DNA from: Mycobacterium sp. 050128
GTDB lineage: Bacteria > Actinomycetota > Actinomycetes > Mycobacteriales > Mycobacteriaceae
DNA length: 64,000 bases
NCBI RefSeq assembly: GCF_036409155.1
Contig: NZ_JAZGLW010000003.1
Coordinates: 248,001 to 312,000 of the forward strand
Direction: 5' to 3'
Each line of letters starts with the position of its first letter. Position 1 is the stretch's first letter. Shown here piece after piece: positions 48,057 through 54,544 of this stretch. A model generated the notes under the pieces. The model was not told the DNA's origin and did no database searches. It saw only the letters and a list, made by a program, of their open reading frames with translations. Made by a program: the position numbers and the translations under genes.

Positions 48057-49514
48057 CTATCGCGTCGCCGCCGTTTTCTCCCGCTGACGTTCGGTGGCGG
48101 TGCCGGCCCGCGACGAAGGCTCGGGCGGTGACGGTGTCCGCGAAACCCGGGCCCGCAGGTTGCCCCAGAAGATGCGTGGCAGCAGGGCGGGATCTTGGAG
48201 CCGCGACGGCGGGTCGATGAAGTTGGAAACCCGAAAGAAGCGTTCGGTCAGCACAACGTCGTGGGCGGCGGCGTTTAGTGCCGCTCGAGTCACCCAGCCT
48301 TGCAGCCGCGCCCGCCTGGAACTCCGGTCGCGAACCGGGGAAGTGACCCGCGACCTGGCTCTGTTTGCCGCCCACATCTCGCCGATGTAGCGCGCCGTCG
48401 CACCGAAATAGCGATGTGCCAATGCATCATCGCCAGCCAGCAGACAATCGCGCAGAGTCAGCGCTTCCAGCGCGGCGATTGTCATGCCCTGGCCGTAGGT
48501 CGGGTCGGGGGCGCACAATGCGTCGCCGAGGACCACCAAACCCGATGGGAATCGCGATATTTGGTCGTAGCGGCGCCACACGGCGGCGGTGTGCTGATAT
48601 GTGACGGCTTCCCCGATGGGGTGCGCCTGGCGTAGTCCTTCCACCAAGTCCGCGGGTAGGAAGGGCGCGGCCAGCGCGAGCATCGCGTCGTAATCGGTTG
48701 GCGGTTCGCCGGTTTCGGCCGGCTGGCCGATCGCCAGCATCCAGGTGTCATGTTCGTTGGCCAGCAACAGGCCTCCTGGTCTGTCGTCGCCTGGGTTGAA
48801 CATCACGAGCCGCTGGGCGATCGATCCCGTGGGCATGCTCAGCTGTTGGCTCGCGTAGCTATATCTCGCGGCCATGCGGTGCTCGGTGGGCCGTTCGAAA
48901 CCCAGCCTCTCCAAGAACGCCGGGGTACGCGCCGCCCGCCCCATCGCATCGACCACCAGGTCGGCGTCCAGTGTTGTCAGTAAACCGTTGTAGCGCCGGA
49001 TGATGCGAACACCGTTGACGATATCGCCGGTGGTGAGCAGCTCGGACACGTCGTGCCCGTCGAGGAAGGTCACGTTCGGTAGGGCCTTGACGCGGCGGCG
49101 CAGCTGAAACTCCATAAACGGCCTGCTCGCCATGTGCAGCGTCAGCGCGGCCGGATCGGCGAATCTGCCCGCGCTTTTCAGCTGGTAACGCCCGAGGCGC
49201 ACGTAGAAGTGCGACAGGTCACCGTCATCGACCAGGACCGCCCCGGCCCGGGCCAGGTCGTCCAGCAGTCCGGGAAACAGCTCATCCAGTACCTGCAGGC
49301 CGCGGCTGTAGAAGTTGTGCGCATGCCGCCCTTGGGGGATGCCCCGGCGATGACACGGATAGTCGGGCAACCTGTCCCGTTCGACCACGCTGACCGAATC
49401 GTAGAACTCTGAAAGCACGCGGGCGGCAAGCAAACCCGCCATTCCGGCACCCAGTACGACTGCGTGCTCGCCGAGCCGGTTCGGCGAGTCGACGCGATGC
49501 GTTGTCGAACCCAT
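48057..49514 (-). CDS. FAD-dependent monooxygenase/oxidoreductase
   Basis: 485 residues. FAD-binding VLGAGMAGLLAARVL (GxGxxG at 22-27), then VVERDRLPDYPCHRRGIPQG and near the C terminus GDALCAPDPTYGQGMTIAALEAL, the GD motif of the PHBH/UbiH-type flavin hydroxylases. The substrate is unknown; geranylgeranyl-reductase-like relatives exist. ATG 49514; a predicted promoter (TTGAAT-16-TAGAAT) at 49631-49658 overlaps operator A and gives a ~110-base leader. Divergent from the PPE pair, and absent from this position in H37Rv as I remember it. Confidence 0.88.
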   Translation of the reverse strand: MGSTTHRVDSPNRLGEHAVVLGAGMAGLLAARVLSEFYDSVSVVERDRLPDYPCHRRGIPQGRHAHNFYSRGLQVLDELFPGLLDDLARAGAVLVDDGDLSHFYVRLGRYQLKSAGRFADPAALTLHMASRPFMEFQLRRRVKALPNVTFLDGHDVSELLTTGDIVNGVRIIRRYNGLLTTLDADLVVDAMGRAARTPAFLERLGFERPTEHRMAARYSYASQQLSMPTGSIAQRLVMFNPGDDRPGGLLLANEHDTWMLAIGQPAETGEPPTDYDAMLALAAPFLPADLVEGLRQAHPIGEAVTYQHTAAVWRRYDQISRFPSGLVVLGDALCAPDPTYGQGMTIAALEALTLRDCLLAGDDALAHRYFGATARYIGEMWAANRARSRVTSPVRDRSSRRARLQGWVTRAALNAAAHDVVLTERFFRVSNFIDPPSRLQDPALLPRIFWGNLRARVSRTPSPPEPSSRAGTATERQREKTAATR

Positions 49515-49630: not shown

Positions 49631-49658
49631 ATTCTATGGCCGTTGAAAAAATATTCAA
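49631..49658 (-). promoter_or_regulatory. Predicted promoter of FAD monooxygenase gene
   Basis: On the minus strand TTGAAT (49658-49653), 16 bases, TAGAAT (49636-49631). The -35 lies in the operator-like palindromes, so a bound TetR protein would block it. The region 49530-49575 further down is unusually AT-rich. Confidence 0.45.
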
Positions 49659-49669
49659 TAGGCATTGAA
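49643..49669. promoter_or_regulatory. Operator A (TetR-type palindromes)
   Basis: TTCAAT-AGGC-ATTGAA at 49654-49669 matches the TTCAA-N6-TTGAA pattern of operators B and C. It overlaps a reversed copy, TTGAA-N6-TTCAA, at 49643-49658. Located between the divergent FAD gene and first PPE gene. Confidence 0.6.
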
Positions 49670-49704
49670 ATAGGCACGCACCGACCGCGGAAAGGACCGT
49701 TGAC

Positions 49705-50230
49705 ATGGACTTTGCGTTGTTGCCTCCGGAGGTGAATTCCGGGCTGATGTATGCCGGTCCGGGGGCGGGGCCTTTGCTGGAGGCGGCGGCGGGTTGGGAC
49801 GCGCTGGCCGCCCAGCTGGAGTCGACCGCCAGTGGTTATGCGGCGCAGCTGGCGGGATTGACCGGTCAGGCGTGGTCGGGCCCTTCGTCGCTGTTGATGA
49901 GCGCGGCGGCCACTCCTTATGTGGAGTGGTTGTCGGCTGCCGCGGCTCAGGCCGCGCAGACCGGGGCCCAGGCCTGCGCGGCGGCGGCGGCGTACGAGGC
50001 GGCGTTCGCGATGACGGTGCCGCCTCCGGTGATCGCGGTCAACCGGGCACAGCTGATCGCGCTGGTCGCCACCAATTTCTTCGGGCAGAACACCGCGGCG
50101 ATCGCGGCGACCGAAGCGGAGTACCTGCAGATGTGGGTTCAGGACGCCACCGCCATGTACGGCTATGCGGCCGACTCCGAAATCGCCAGCACCCTGACCT
50201 CGTTTGACGATCCGCCGCAGACCACCAACC
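49705..50230 (+). repeat. PPE-domain duplication, copy 1
   Basis: About 525 bp that match 50966-51491 with five differences I can find: two in the first 30 bases and three near the end. Identity starts at the ATG; the upstream bases differ. Confidence 0.85.
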
Positions 50231-50925
50231 CGGCCGGGCCGGATGCACAGGCGCAGGCCCAAGCGCAGACGATGGCGCAGACGACAGGCGACGCGACACG
50301 GCAGGTGGCCACGAGCAATGCCACGATGCACACGCTGAGCTCCGCCACCACCGACACCGTCGGGCCTGTTGCTCCGGACCAGACGGTGACGGCCCCGCCG
50401 GGCAGCACCATCACCCTCGGTACCAACACGGGCATGTTGATCAACAGTGGCGACATCACAGTCACCGGCCCTGGCACTAACCTCATCACTTACGGCTCGG
50501 TAATTATGAACCCCGGCAGCACAATTCACACGCTCATCGATTGCTCCGCGGACGGTGTCCTGATTCCGGGAGGCGTTGACTTCACTGCCGGGGCCAACCC
50601 CGTCGTGCTGACTCCCGGGTCCTTCCAGGAGGTCCTGGTCACCCTGGTCAACGGCTCCGCCACCCTGCCCGGTGTCGCCGGGGGGCAGGCCGCCATCCAG
50701 ACCCTCGCAAACACCGCCACCGCCATCGCCGGCCCCGCGGGTGCGTCCATCACCAACGCGTTCGGCACGGTCACCATCGCCTCCGTCACCCCGAGCTCGT
50801 CGAGCGCGGTGGGGGCCGCCCCGTTGGGCGGGCTGGCCGCGCCGGGCCTGGCGGGCACCGCGGCCATTGAGCCGCAGCTCAATGTGGATGGGCTGCTGGA
50901 GTGGGCTCAAACGGTTGCCGGCTGA
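49705..50925 (+). CDS. PPE family protein, copy 1
   Basis: 406 residues. The N-terminal PPE domain (1-~175) begins [13 protein letters not shown] (Pro7-Pro8-Glu9) and contains the WSGPSS WxG element and a helical hairpin, the fold exported by ESX type VII systems. Residues ~180-370 are Gly/Thr/Val-rich with beta-like repeats ([19 protein letters not shown]). The protein ends [19 protein letters not shown]. No PE gene is adjacent, so it needs a partner elsewhere. AAAGGA precedes ATG 49705. 40 bp before copy 2. Confidence 0.93.
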
Positions 50926-50965
50926 AGGTAGACAAATCGTGGTGCACCCGAAGGGTCTGGGCGAC

Positions 50966-51491
50966 ATGGATTTTGCGTTGTTGCCTCCGGAGGTCAATTC
51001 CGGGCTGATGTATGCCGGTCCGGGGGCGGGGCCTTTGCTGGAGGCGGCGGCGGGTTGGGACGCGCTGGCCGCCCAGCTGGAGTCGACCGCCAGTGGTTAT
51101 GCGGCGCAGCTGGCGGGATTGACCGGTCAGGCGTGGTCGGGCCCTTCGTCGCTGTTGATGAGCGCGGCGGCCACTCCTTATGTGGAGTGGTTGTCGGCTG
51201 CCGCGGCTCAGGCCGCGCAGACCGGGGCCCAGGCCTGCGCGGCGGCGGCGGCGTACGAGGCGGCGTTCGCGATGACGGTGCCGCCTCCGGTGATCGCGGT
51301 CAACCGGGCACAGCTGATCGCGCTGGTCGCCACCAATTTCTTCGGGCAGAACACCGCGGCGATCGCGGCGACCGAAGCGGAGTACCTGCAGATGTGGGTT
51401 CAGGACGCCACCGCCATGTACGGCTATGCGGCCGACTCCGAAATCGCCAGCACCCTGGCACCGTTTGACGATCCGCCGCAGACCACCAACG
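50966..51491 (+). repeat. PPE-domain duplication, copy 2
   Basis: Second copy of the ~525-bp segment at 49705-50230, offset 1261 bp. The near-identity in coding sequence alone points to recent duplication or gene conversion. Confidence 0.85.
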
Positions 51492-52171
51492 AGGCGGGAC
51501 GGGGTGACCAATCCAGCGCGGTGGCCCAGGCCGCCGCCAATACCACCAGCGCCCGCACCCAATCACTGGCGCAACTCAGCGCACAAACCAGCTCCCAGCA
51601 ACTCGCCACGACCGCCAGCGCCGGCGACCCCGTACTCCCTGCTGGTAGCACCGCCAACGTCGCGCCCGGCGGAGCCGTCCTGACCACCGGCGTCACCGCC
51701 ACCGCCAGCAACGGCTACCCGGTCACATTCGCCGCAAATTCCGAGTTCTTTGCCGTCACCCAGGTGACCGTCACGGTCAACATCAACGGCGGCGGACTTC
51801 CCTTTACCTTCGCCGCCGGCACCGATGTTTCCATTGGCGTCCCGGGCGTAGTCGACAGCGGAACCTTTACCGTCCTTTCTGGCTCCCCAGGCGTCGCTGG
51901 CACTTTCACCGTCCCGAGCGGGTCCATCACCGCCGTCGGCGCCGGCACCAACGTCACCCTCGCCAGCGGCTCCGTCATCGCCGTCAACACCGGCACCGTC
52001 ATCACCGGCCCCGCCGTGGCCCCGGTCGCCCCCACCTCGTCCGGCGCGGCGGGAGCGTTGCCCGTGTTAGCCGGGCTGAGCAGCACACCAGGTCTGGCGG
52101 GTACCGCAGGAATTCAGCCTCAGCTCAACGTGGATGGGCTGTTGGAGTGGGCTCAAATCGCGTCCGGCTGA
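50966..52171 (+). CDS. PPE family protein, copy 2
   Basis: 401 residues. The first ~165 residues are the same as copy 1, with the PPE motif and WSGPSS. The middle differs completely and is again Gly/Thr/Val-rich ([37 protein letters not shown]), resembling a beta-solenoid or beta-roll. It ends [19 protein letters not shown], so the C-terminal ~20 residues are shared with copy 1. ATG 50966 with AAGGGT upstream; GTG 50939 is a longer alternative. Likely co-transcribed with copy 1 and followed by a strong hairpin. Confidence 0.92.
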
Positions 52172-52230
52172 GAGCCGGCATGGTGGATCAAGTGACGGTC
52201 ACCTCCGACGCGAAGTGGTCAGCGGGTACA

Positions 52231-52269
52231 GGCGTTCACCTACCAGGTGGCACCCGGTAGGTGAACGCC
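52231..52269 (+). terminator. Perfect 14-bp inverted repeat after the PPE pair
   Basis: GGCGTTCACCTACC (52231-52244) and its exact reverse complement (52256-52269) flank an 11-base loop, 60 bp after the PPE stop. No T-run follows. The structure would also form at the end of the convergent small peptide transcript. Probably a factor-independent or bidirectional terminator; a binding site is possible. Confidence 0.55.
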
Positions 52270-52359
52270 CGATCGATATTGGGTCATGGCGGGGCAGCGC
52301 CAGAGGTTGGCTGTACTTGACTTGCGAAGTGCCGCTTAGGTATTCGGCGCTATGCGCCA

Positions 52360-52494
52360 TTACCCCGCGGCAACCCCGAGTGGTGGTTCCACACTGGCCG
52401 CTGGAACACATCCGGTCGCTGTTACGGCGGTAAACGCGAGGATCGTCGCAACGACGATCTTTGTGGCTAGACCTGACATGACGACTCCGTTCAT
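52360..52494 (-). CDS. Small secreted/lipoprotein-like peptide, 44 residues
   Basis: ATG 52494 is preceded by AGGGGG at 6 bases. The product has a short N terminus with Lys12, a hydrophobic core (IVVATILAFTAVTA) and TGC-Cys29, close to a lipobox, leaving a mature tail of ~15 residues (CVPAASVEPPLGVAAG). It is below the usual gene-finding size limit. A TTGAAA-17-TACAGT promoter at 52512-52540 overlaps operator B. If real it is a regulon member; not recognised in any family. Confidence 0.55.
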   Translation of the reverse strand: MNGVVMSGLATKIVVATILAFTAVTATGCVPAASVEPPLGVAAG

Positions 52495-52511
52495 TTGAAC
52501 CCCCTGTCAGA

Positions 52512-52540
52512 ACTGTAGATCGAAAAGAGCTTTTTTTCAA
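52512..52540 (-). promoter_or_regulatory. Promoter of the small peptide gene
   Basis: Minus strand TTGAAA (52540-52535), 17-base spacer, TACAGT (52517-52512): near-consensus spacing. The -35 is the left arm of operator B. Confidence 0.6.
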
Positions 52541-52552
52541 TACGCATTGAAA
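52535..52552. promoter_or_regulatory. Operator B (TTTCAAT-ACGC-ATTGAAA)
   Basis: Perfect inverted repeat with 7-base arms and 4-base centre. Matches operators A and C (TTCAA-N6-TTGAA). Each arm supplies a TTGAAA -35 for one of two divergent promoters. Confidence 0.65.
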
Positions 52553-52575
52553 TACAAGAAGCTTGCGGGCATAGT
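52547..52575 (+). promoter_or_regulatory. Predicted promoter toward the O-methyltransferase gene
   Basis: TTGAAA (52547-52552), 17 bases, CATAGT (52570-52575). The transcript would have a leader of about 170 bases before TTG 52750; nothing else is seen in that leader. Confidence 0.45.
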
Positions 52576-52749
52576 TGCTACGCGGACGGGTCGATCACCG
52601 CGCAGCAGGGGCGTTCAGGTGAACAAGTACCTTTGGGCGCGTTGGCGCTTGGTCTGCGGCGTGGATCACCTGCTGCTGTCCGAGCGGCCGAGAGAACTCG
52701 GCCACGAGATACGTCCATCGTGGCGAAGGTGAACGAGGAAGGTAGTCAC

Positions 52750-53835
52750 TTGACGTCTAAGGTTCCGCCGGTCAAGGTCGCGCGAGCCGTCGAGCGGTTC
52801 CGCGACCATCTGTCGCTGCTGCGCCGACGTTCGGCTCCGCCTGCGGCGGTGATGATGGAATTGATCTTGAACGCGTGGGTTGCTCAGGCGATCGCGAGCG
52901 CGGCGGATCTTGGCGTGGCGGACGCCTTGGCCAATGGCCCGCTGTCCGGCGAGCACCTGGCGGACCGGGTCGGCGCCGAGCCCGACGCATTGCGGCGACT
53001 CATGCGCGCGTTGATCGGCATCGGGATTTTCAGCCAGCGCAAGGACGGGCGTTACGTGCTCACCCCGCTCGCGCAAACACTGCGCACCGACGCGCCGGTG
53101 TCGATGGCCGGGATGGCGCGGTGGGTCGGATCGCCTCAGCATCGGGAGCATTGGAGCCACCTGACCGACGCGGTCCGGACCGGGAATCCGGTGCTTCCGG
53201 AGCTTCGCGGCAAACCGGCCTTCGAGTACCTGGCCGACGAAGCCGAGCTAGGCGCGATTTTCAACTCCGCCATGACCAACGTGTCCGAATTCGCGACCGT
53301 GCCCTTGACCGCGGCCTACGACTTCGGTGCGTTCGGCACGATCGTCGATGTCGGAGGCGGACACGGTCGGCTGCTGGCGGCGATCCTGCAGACCGCCCCG
53401 AATTCGCGCGGCGTGCTGTTCGATCTTCCGGAGGTCGTGGCGGGCGCCCCGGAGTTGTTTGGCAAGTACGGCGTCGACGGCCGCGTCCGGATCGAAGAGG
53501 GCTCCTTCTTCGATTCCGCGCCGGAGGGCGGCGACGCCTATGTGCTCAAGAACGTCATACACGACTGGCCCGAGCAAGACGCGGTCCGCATCCTGAAGAA
53601 CGTCCGTGCCGCGGCCCCTGCCGGTGCGCGACTGTTGCTCTGCGAGTTCGTCATTCCCGACCACGACCGCGATTTCCACGGCAAGTGGGTGGACATCGAG
53701 ATGCTGGTTGTCGCCGGCGCGCGCGAACGCACCGCGGACGAGTACGGCCGGCTGTTCGATCAAGCCGGCTTCCGGTTGAACCGGGTCGTCGACACCGTGT
53801 CGCCGCTCAGCATCATCGAGGCGACCGCGGTGTAG
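52750..53835 (+). CDS. SAM-dependent O-methyltransferase (Methyltransf_2 type)
   Basis: 361 residues. N-terminal winged-helix dimerisation domain (AQAIASAADLGVADALANGPLSGEHLADRVG), then the Rossmann SAM domain: VDVGGGHGRLLAAIL, FDLPEVV and the catalytic-type stretch LKNVIHDWPEQDAVRIL. Family members methylate hydroxyls of phenolics and polyketides; Rv0567-like relatives exist in mycobacteria. TTG 52750 has GAGGAAGG at 7 bases; longer starts upstream lack this. The 3' end overlaps the convergent TetR gene by 23 bp. Substrate unknown. Confidence 0.88.
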   Translation: MTSKVPPVKVARAVERFRDHLSLLRRRSAPPAAVMMELILNAWVAQAIASAADLGVADALANGPLSGEHLADRVGAEPDALRRLMRALIGIGIFSQRKDGRYVLTPLAQTLRTDAPVSMAGMARWVGSPQHREHWSHLTDAVRTGNPVLPELRGKPAFEYLADEAELGAIFNSAMTNVSEFATVPLTAAYDFGAFGTIVDVGGGHGRLLAAILQTAPNSRGVLFDLPEVVAGAPELFGKYGVDGRVRIEEGSFFDSAPEGGDAYVLKNVIHDWPEQDAVRILKNVRAAAPAGARLLLCEFVIPDHDRDFHGKWVDIEMLVVAGARERTADEYGRLFDQAGFRLNRVVDTVSPLSIIEATAV

Positions 53836-54511
53836 CTGCGCGCGGCTTCGCCTTCTTTCGCGGCGTCTTGGCAGGCGGTTGCGCGGGCGATTCCAGTCCG
53901 AGTTCGTCGGCGGGGGCGGTCAAGAAGCGGTGCACCGCAGGCCCCAACAACCTGACCACGTCGTCGACCCCGAGCGACGACAGCGGCGGCACACGCATGA
54001 TGTAGCGCAACATCGCGGTGCCGACGAGGTTGGTCGCGGCCAGCGTCGCGCGCAGTCGAGCTTCATCGCCGCCGCCCATGGCACCGGACACCGCGGTCAG
54101 CAGATAGTCATGCAGAAAGACGCGAAACGCTTCGTTGGCATCGCTGTTCGACGTTGCCGACTGCACCATCGAGGCCATGCTCGCGGCCGTCTCGGGCCGC
54201 TCCCAGATACTGAGGTAGGCCCGCACCACGCGGTAGCCCAAGTCGTCGTCCTTCTCGGCGACCACGGTCGTCAGCAGGTCGGCCGGCAGTACCAACTTCA
54301 TCGACTCGCGAAACAACTCCGCCTTCGAGCCGAACAGATAGAGGATCATCGACGGGTCGACTCGGGCATCGTCGGCAATCGCTCGCAACGGTGTCTTGTC
54401 ATAGCCGTTCATGGCGAACTGGCGCTTTGCCGCGCGCAGTACCGTGTCGCGCGATACCGGCTCGCCTTGACGTCTGCCTCGTCGCTTCGTCGTTTCCCCA
54501 GGTGAGGGCAC
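53813..54511 (-). CDS. TetR/AcrR family transcriptional regulator
   Basis: 232 residues. N-terminal HTH (~20-66) with TVLRAAKRQFAMNGYDKTPLRAIADDARVDPSMILYLFGSKAELF, then an all-helical ligand domain and a basic C-terminal tail (PPAKTPRKKAKPRAATPRSPR) that is unusual for TetR proteins. GTG 54511 has TATGGT 6 bases upstream and operator C overlaps the promoter, so it should repress itself. Its neighbours and the matching operators suggest it controls the FAD, PPE, peptide and methyltransferase genes. Confidence 0.9.
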   Translation of the reverse strand: MPSPGETTKRRGRRQGEPVSRDTVLRAAKRQFAMNGYDKTPLRAIADDARVDPSMILYLFGSKAELFRESMKLVLPADLLTTVVAEKDDDLGYRVVRAYLSIWERPETAASMASMVQSATSNSDANEAFRVFLHDYLLTAVSGAMGGGDEARLRATLAATNLVGTAMLRYIMRVPPLSSLGVDDVVRLLGPAVHRFLTAPADELGLESPAQPPAKTPRKKAKPRAATPRSPR

Positions 54512-54517
54512 GTGCGA

Positions 54518-54523
54518 ACCATA
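54518..54523 (-). promoter_or_regulatory. -10 box, leaderless tetR promoter
   Basis: TATGGT on the minus strand, 6 bases before the GTG at 54511. Operator C begins 4 bases further upstream. Confidence 0.5.
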
Positions 54524-54526
54524 TCA

Positions 54527-54544
54527 TTTCAACCGTTATTGAAA
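54527..54544. promoter_or_regulatory. Operator C (TTTCAA-CCGTTA-TTGAAA)
   Basis: Inverted repeat with perfect 6-base arms and the same 18-bp length as operator B, directly upstream of the TetR gene. Typical place for an autoregulatory site. Confidence 0.6.

Follow-up and report, generated by a model that had tools for sequence, protein, structure and literature searches.

A probable TetR regulon with a palindromic operator and exchangeable cargo genes in mycobacteria

The window analysed here, a stretch of 64,000 nucleotides (nt) from Mycobacterium sp. 050128 (contig NZ_JAZGLW010000003.1, positions 248,001 to 312,000), holds a block in which the gene of a TetR-family regulator lies beside those of a flavin adenine dinucleotide (FAD)-dependent monooxygenase, two PPE proteins, a peptide of 39 amino acids (aa) and an O-methyltransferase, and the question it raises is what holds so mixed a group together. 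A preliminary description, made from the sequence, had named these genes, which open reading frames, domain searches and homology confirm, and had placed them under matching operators. It is proposed here that the block is a TetR regulon, in which the repressor, sitting on four copies of TTTCAAYNNNNRTTGAAA, would hold off the six-gene group until a small ligand releases it; we put the probability of this reading, which is drawn from sequence comparison, at about 0.87.

The palindrome and the regulator

Three inverted repeats of the form TTCAA-N6-TTGAA had been reported in the block as rare, intergenic and close to promoters, the last of them just upstream of the TetR gene. All three are present (49654-49669, 52536-52551 and 54528-54543) and are the only matches in the window, a count reached in none of 100 shuffles (mean 0.01), and their positions and the neighbouring hexamers agree with the rest of that account. 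In the 6.73 Mb of the organism's own genome this loose pattern occurs at five places, three of them in the block (reversed-pattern control, one). The refined pattern TTTCAAYN4RTTGAAA occurs at 13 places when up to two mismatches are allowed (reversed control, four), and at zero or one mismatch only at the block's three sites; the genome-wide scan that had been recommended as a check thus found no scatter. One of the ten two-mismatch places is a fourth block site, 22 base pairs (bp) from the site in the gap between the FAD monooxygenase and PPE genes. Within this genome the palindrome belongs to the block, where its copies stand on or next to hexamers that resemble promoter elements.

In an even draw of 198 genomes from the genus, 83 carry a TetR orthologue (at least 210 bits; next score 134), and 11-20 kb were fetched around all 83 TetR loci, which were sorted by TetR identity and gene order into groups A (that of the window), B and C. 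The window protein is closest to the TetR of M. ahvazicum (89-90% identity), which suggests that the organism is related to the M. simiae complex. It has the domains TetR_N and TetR_C_16 (PF00440, PF17920) above cut-off and gives an all-helical structure model (mean pLDDT 69). Comparison of this fold was tried as a guide to the ligand and set aside: many TetR proteins fall within 1 Z unit, so no ligand is named.

The operator is present before the TetR start codon in 82 of the 83 orthologues. Scored over 12 informative positions (TTCAAYN4RTTGAA), the site directly upstream of TetR matches at all 12 in 65 loci, at 11 in 16, at 10 in one and at 6 in one (L047), against a control in which 21 of 1660 windows of 150 nt, drawn at random from these loci, score 10 or more, some of these being probably real sites. 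An in-frame start codon follows 31-33 nt from the start of the site in 79/83 loci, and a TANNNT -10 hexamer lies after the site in 82/82 (11% in shuffles). TetR identity to the window protein falls to 49% within the set, the operator arms being kept and the four central bases varying. Conserved arms, a fixed distance to the start and the TANNNT hexamer are together what one would expect of a gene that regulates itself and has a leaderless-type start. A set of 80 named loci, which overlaps with this one, agrees: 77 score at least 10 (L135, L203 and L204 fall below).

Scanned at zero or one mismatch, all 80 of the 83 TetR-bearing genomes that were covered hold the site, at 134 places in sum (reversed control, 10; places listed in full for 17 genomes). 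The one-mismatch sites L215-L219, L222 and L223 in such genomes have no common gene among the matches listed. Forty of the 115 genomes without an orthologue were also scanned and gave 17 places in 14 genomes, two of them perfect; several of the 17 have the TTCAACAACTGTTGAA form that is seen beside TetR paralogues and FAD hydroxylases in L213 and L226. Paired TTCAACAACTGTTGAA-like sites, 43-45 bp apart, were observed near 7400-7830 in L213, L224, L225, L226 and L227, and in L213, L225 and L226 they adjoin a called TetR paralogue (32-38%), whose neighbour is a FAD_binding_3 hydroxylase (L213, L226) or a PEMT-like gene (L225). This paralogue probably represents a sister regulator whose operator closely resembles that of the block.

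Predicted targets beside and away from the regulator

Between aroG and pknL, the order of the window (FAD monooxygenase leftwards, operator, PPE rightwards, peptide leftwards, operator, methyltransferase rightwards, TetR leftwards, operator) is found in L043, L046, L048, L050 and L052 and, in the set of named loci, in M. ahvazicum and M. genavense. The comparison across mycobacteria thus finds the block genes together in other species, which answers an objection that the preliminary description had foreseen. The FAD/PPE gap holds two sites scoring at least 10 in L043, L046, L048 and L050, and one in L052; in eight loci PPE is preceded, at 49-56 nt, by a PPE-type operator, L052 falling outside this search pattern. 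The block looks reduced in L047 (G197) and L052 (G100), the methyltransferase being incomplete in both, and in M. ahvazicum (L126) PPE matches occur at three places within the same block.

Of the 70 loci outside group A, 67 have a second operator at a distance of 51-57 bp in the direction of the divergent gene, with a score that none of 280 control windows reaches. What that divergent gene encodes depends on the group. In group C, where the surroundings resemble dnaK-hspR and clpB (a MerR-type gene was confirmed by test, and the other gene names are ones we assign from size and order), it is an ABC-2-like membrane protein. Gene calling found the ABC-2-like gene in 42/83 loci, of which one (L045) belongs to group A, and tblastn found it in 59 of the 80 named loci. 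In 37 of the 42 it is followed by a called flavohaemoglobin-like gene of the same orientation, the two genes overlapping or lying within 28 nt of each other in 32 cases; the product of this second gene has globin, FAD- and NAD-binding domains, and we take it to be the equivalent of Rv0385. The window genome has a flavohaemoglobin homologue (71%) on another contig. Domain and model matches suggest no closer name than ABC-2-like for the membrane protein, because Pfam ABC2_membrane_3 is above cut-off in one of two members and the fold has a single Foldseek match below 0.001, an ABCH transporter at TM 0.34 (model mean pLDDT 69). A search of the window's own genome for this protein gave no match at 1e-10, an empty answer that alone shows nothing. 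In group B (M. rhodesiae and relatives) the divergent frame carries Big_9/cadherin-like domains and is fused, in L057, behind an ABC-2-like part, and in the group A loci L044, L051, L053 and L055 a PPE gene takes the neighbour place with the second operator before it. Since in most relatives that have it the TetR gene comes with two operators and a divergent ABC-2-like neighbour, the repressor looks older than its present cargo, the PPE and peptide/methyltransferase genes appearing as later additions.

Targets also occur at a distance. Four genomes (G124, G086, G104 and G001) have a perfect site upstream of a methyltransferase gene (84-90% identity to that of the window) on a contig other than that of TetR, with the peptide gene divergent; the TetR in these genomes is of the dnaK-hspR type (56-60% identity). 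At zero or one mismatch the first three hold exactly two places, TetR and peptide/methyltransferase, and the second operator beside TetR is lost (L121, L118 and L110). In G001 (L114; L185) TetR still has the ABC-2-like gene and a second, weaker operator beside it, and there is one more site place, of a form also found in G158 and in G088, a genome without this TetR. More widely, among the matches listed, a methyltransferase of at least 74% identity is found in at least 16 genomes (two incomplete), with a perfect site before the gene in 16/16 and TetR on another contig in four; homologues at 53-72% exist beyond these, again among the matches listed. The regulon put forward in the preliminary description is borne out to the extent that its operator is conserved at several promoters, even where regulator and target lie on different contigs. 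As an observation apart, a TTTCATCTTGCGTTGAAA site recurs in genomes with and without this TetR (G158:C4:3457899, G001:C3:45844, G088:C1:5340604).

The peptide and its C-terminal tail

The 39-aa peptide contains a hydrophobic stretch and an invariant cysteine, and its last residues are VEPPLGVAAG. Its translation is very likely, because in 20 loci the nonsynonymous difference is below the synonymous one in 190/190 pairs (means 0.124 and 0.394). All 27 peptide matches in the fetched loci searched, some of which represent one genome fetched twice, have a 12/12 operator 69-73 nt upstream. The cysteine is preceded by G or A in 20/20, with A at position -3; the lipobox consensus usually has L, V or I at that position.

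A related end is found on the cadherin-like frames of group B (475-842 aa from stop to stop), which finish in (D)EPP(T/S)GVAAG or a near form in 7/7 loci from G-numbered genomes. The DNA pattern for PPxGVAAG followed by a stop-like codon was searched in 80 genomes and occurs at 26 places in 25 of them (reversed control, five): 11 group A peptides, the group B genomes (7/7), four peptides on contigs away from TetR and four others, two of which end in TGG and so are not stops. Within group A the pattern misses G062, whose peptide ends in SPLGVAAG, and G158. The PPxGVAAG tail is common to the peptide and the cadherin-like protein and occurs almost only in this regulon. That the peptide is a deletion remnant of a cadherin-like fusion was considered and rejected, 1123 of 2000 shuffles matching the first membrane helix as well as its N-terminal part does; outside the tail, peptide and fusion protein look unrelated. 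A bolder and rather doubtful idea is that the tail is the regulon's constant exported product, borne by a 39-aa lipopeptide in one group and by the end of a cadherin-like membrane protein in another; it might then act as a surface or secreted signal or a sorting tag of mycobacteria, with the oxygenase and methyltransferase making or clearing the repressor's small molecule. Two perfect sites 51 bp apart were also seen at L220:7859-7925, on a contig other than that carrying the TetR of G067, adjoining a 477-aa Big_9/cadherin-like gene whose product is 55% identical to the L057 protein and ends in EPPSGEEV; this gene is a possible further target.

Mechanism, alternatives and known systems

We propose that TetR represses its own gene together with those of the FAD monooxygenase, the two PPE proteins, the peptide and the O-methyltransferase (Table 1). 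The gap between peptide and methyltransferase is predicted to be a symmetrical promoter whose operator arms serve as -35 hexamers, reading TTGAAA-N17-TACAGT leftwards and TTGAAA-N17-CATAGT rightwards. Counted by eye in 16 loci, the leftward -10 is TACAGT in eight and TANNNT in 15, and the rightward one is CATAGT in 12. As both arms would be -35 hexamers, one bound dimer would close both divergent promoters. At the TetR gene the TANNNT -10 and the start codon follow closely on the operator, so the repressor would hold down its own production from a leaderless-type mRNA, and in the FAD/PPE gap two tandem operators would be available. Release is probably by a small molecule. The inducer may be a lipophilic aromatic or quinone-like compound, a guess made because relatives of the two enzymes act on hydrophobic or aromatic natural products; on release, the compound would be modified by the FAD enzyme and the methyltransferase, and the exported or surface products (PPE and peptide) would change.

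Table 1. Genes, predicted operators and predicted -10 hexamers of the block, in window positions
Feature	Coordinates	Strand	Basis or remark
FAD-dependent monooxygenase, related to MonCI and Lsd18	48057..49514	-	homology
Fourth operator, weaker, tandem to 49653..49670, ATTCTATGGCCGTTGAAA	49631..49648	none	PPE-type site, conserved in relatives
Operator in the FAD/PPE gap, ATTCAATAGGCATTGAAA	49653..49670	none	pattern match
PPE gene 1	49705..50925	+	domain search
PPE gene 2, 40 nt behind PPE gene 1, without own operator	50966..52171	+	domain search, site scan
39-aa exported-type peptide, C-terminus VEPPLGVAAG	52360..52479	-	open reading frame, conservation in relatives
TACAGT, predicted -10 hexamer for the peptide gene, at 17 nt spacing to TTGAAA	52512..52517	-	sequence and relatives
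Operator between peptide and methyltransferase, TTTCAATACGCATTGAAA	52535..52552	none	each arm reads as a -35 hexamer of divergent promoters
CATAGT, predicted -10 hexamer for the methyltransferase gene, at 17 nt spacing to TTGAAA	52570..52575	+	sequence and relatives
O-methyltransferase (Methyltransf_2, dimerisation domain), predicted TTG start	about 52750..53835	+	domain search, homology
TetR-family regulator, 232 aa, GTG start, 3' end overlapping the methyltransferase gene	53813..54511	-	domains, profile search
Predicted -10 TATGGT of TetR, leaderless-type start	54518..54523	-	sequence; TANNNT in 82/82 relatives with the site
Operator of the TetR gene, TTTCAACCGTTATTGAAA	54527..54544	none	32 nt before the start codon

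Both PPE proteins have the N-terminal domain PF00823 (E about 1e-65). Their genes are near-identical over the first 500 nt or so and divergent after that (two mismatches in nt 1-50, none in 51-450, three in 451-500), which reads as if the PPE domain had recently been duplicated or converted and joined to differing tails.

Control might be narrower than proposed: TetR would repress its own gene and the promoter between peptide and methyltransferase, and the sites in the FAD/PPE gap would be weak remnants of the rearrangement by which the PPE gene arrived. This would suit the two mismatches of the fourth site to the 18-bp form, the scores of only 10 and 11 of 12 for the FAD/PPE sites of L046, and the FAD gene, which stands beside the block in only six loci from G-numbered genomes; the constant position and form of the PPE-type site in its eight loci, which represent two different arrangements, speak against it, and we consider it improbable. 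Another protein, such as a TetR paralogue encoded elsewhere in the genome, might read the sites, the TetR gene being merely one of its targets. The paralogue group beside closely similar sites (L213, L225, L226) lends this some colour, but the site goes with the orthologue in 82/83 genomes and is rare in the 40 genomes that lack it, so we rate it as very improbable. It is hardly credible that the palindrome is just a pair of back-to-back -35 hexamers (TTGAAA) of divergent promoters to which no repressor binds. Both arms do stand at -35 spacing to -10 hexamers in the peptide/methyltransferase gap; however, the arms keep a fixed spacing around a variable centre, the site takes other positions relative to the promoter before TetR and at the second site 51-57 bp away, and hardly any other promoter of the genome carries it.

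Several observations weigh against a regulon of all six genes under TetR. The loose pattern has two more exact copies in the window's own genome outside the block (C7, C20). FAD and PPE genes occur together in only five loci from G-numbered genomes, of which L046 has the low scores given above and L052 a single site of at least 10. G142 (L049) has peptide and operator without a close methyltransferase, G158 (L045) is a group A genome in which no peptide was found, and G197 (L047) has neither the TetR operator nor PPE. In the M. rhodesiae group the methyltransferase homologues (64-72%) are found downstream of TetR and have no separate operator, and the methyltransferase site in G001 is an addition and not a replacement, since the ABC-2-like gene is kept there. 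TetR adjoins other genes in most relatives, so the enzymes of the window say little about the ancestral ligand, and, with a very similar site next to the paralogue, cross-talk may occur in some genomes.

Sequence homology links the FAD protein to the polyether epoxidases MonCI (residues 16-354) and Lsd18/LasC (residues 16-467 of 485); no polyketide synthase is among the block genes described. The methyltransferase, of the Methyltransf_2 family, is homologous over nearly its whole length to LaPhzM, MmcR and AlpH (AlpH, 338 bits; 6C5B, 268 bits). In PMC10477347, 6C5B is LaPhzM, and AlpH is an O-methyltransferase-like enzyme that works without S-adenosylmethionine (SAM), its SAM motif being altered to DFCGGQG. 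AlpH-like SAM-independent chemistry was ruled out for the window enzyme, whose motif DVGGGHG is intact and fits the SAM motif DxGxGxG. The small aromatic or lipid compound suggested in the preliminary description is a guess that these natural-product enzymes, the closest solved ones, fit and do not show.

The closest solved relative of the regulator is SCO0857 of Streptomyces coelicolor (PDB 2np3; 132.7 bits with a profile, 35% in structural alignment), for which we know of no operator or target; in a literature search for it with TetR, the name was not found in titles and abstract openings. The operator differs from the motifs of KstR, KstR2 and BkaR. These and others are mycobacterial TetR regulators with palindromic operators, as PMC4482099 describes, and KstR controls a large lipid-degradation regulon (PMC1995591). 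Unlike the regulator of that large regulon, the TetR of the block has a neighbour gene that is exchanged between groups. Titles and abstract openings from further literature searches gave nothing on this regulator or its operator. TetR regulons are a known kind; what is new here is the operator itself, the way in which cargo genes are exchanged, the conserved targets at a distance from the regulator, and the shared tail.

A predicted operator and a target list are now available for a repressor present in about two fifths of the genus sample. To our knowledge, a C-terminal tail common to a 39-aa peptide and a large exported-type protein is undescribed, and it offers a testable element. The regulator keeps a two-operator promoter while its neighbour is exchanged (ABC-2-like, cadherin-like or PPE), and this exchange would be a route by which PPE genes enter ligand control.

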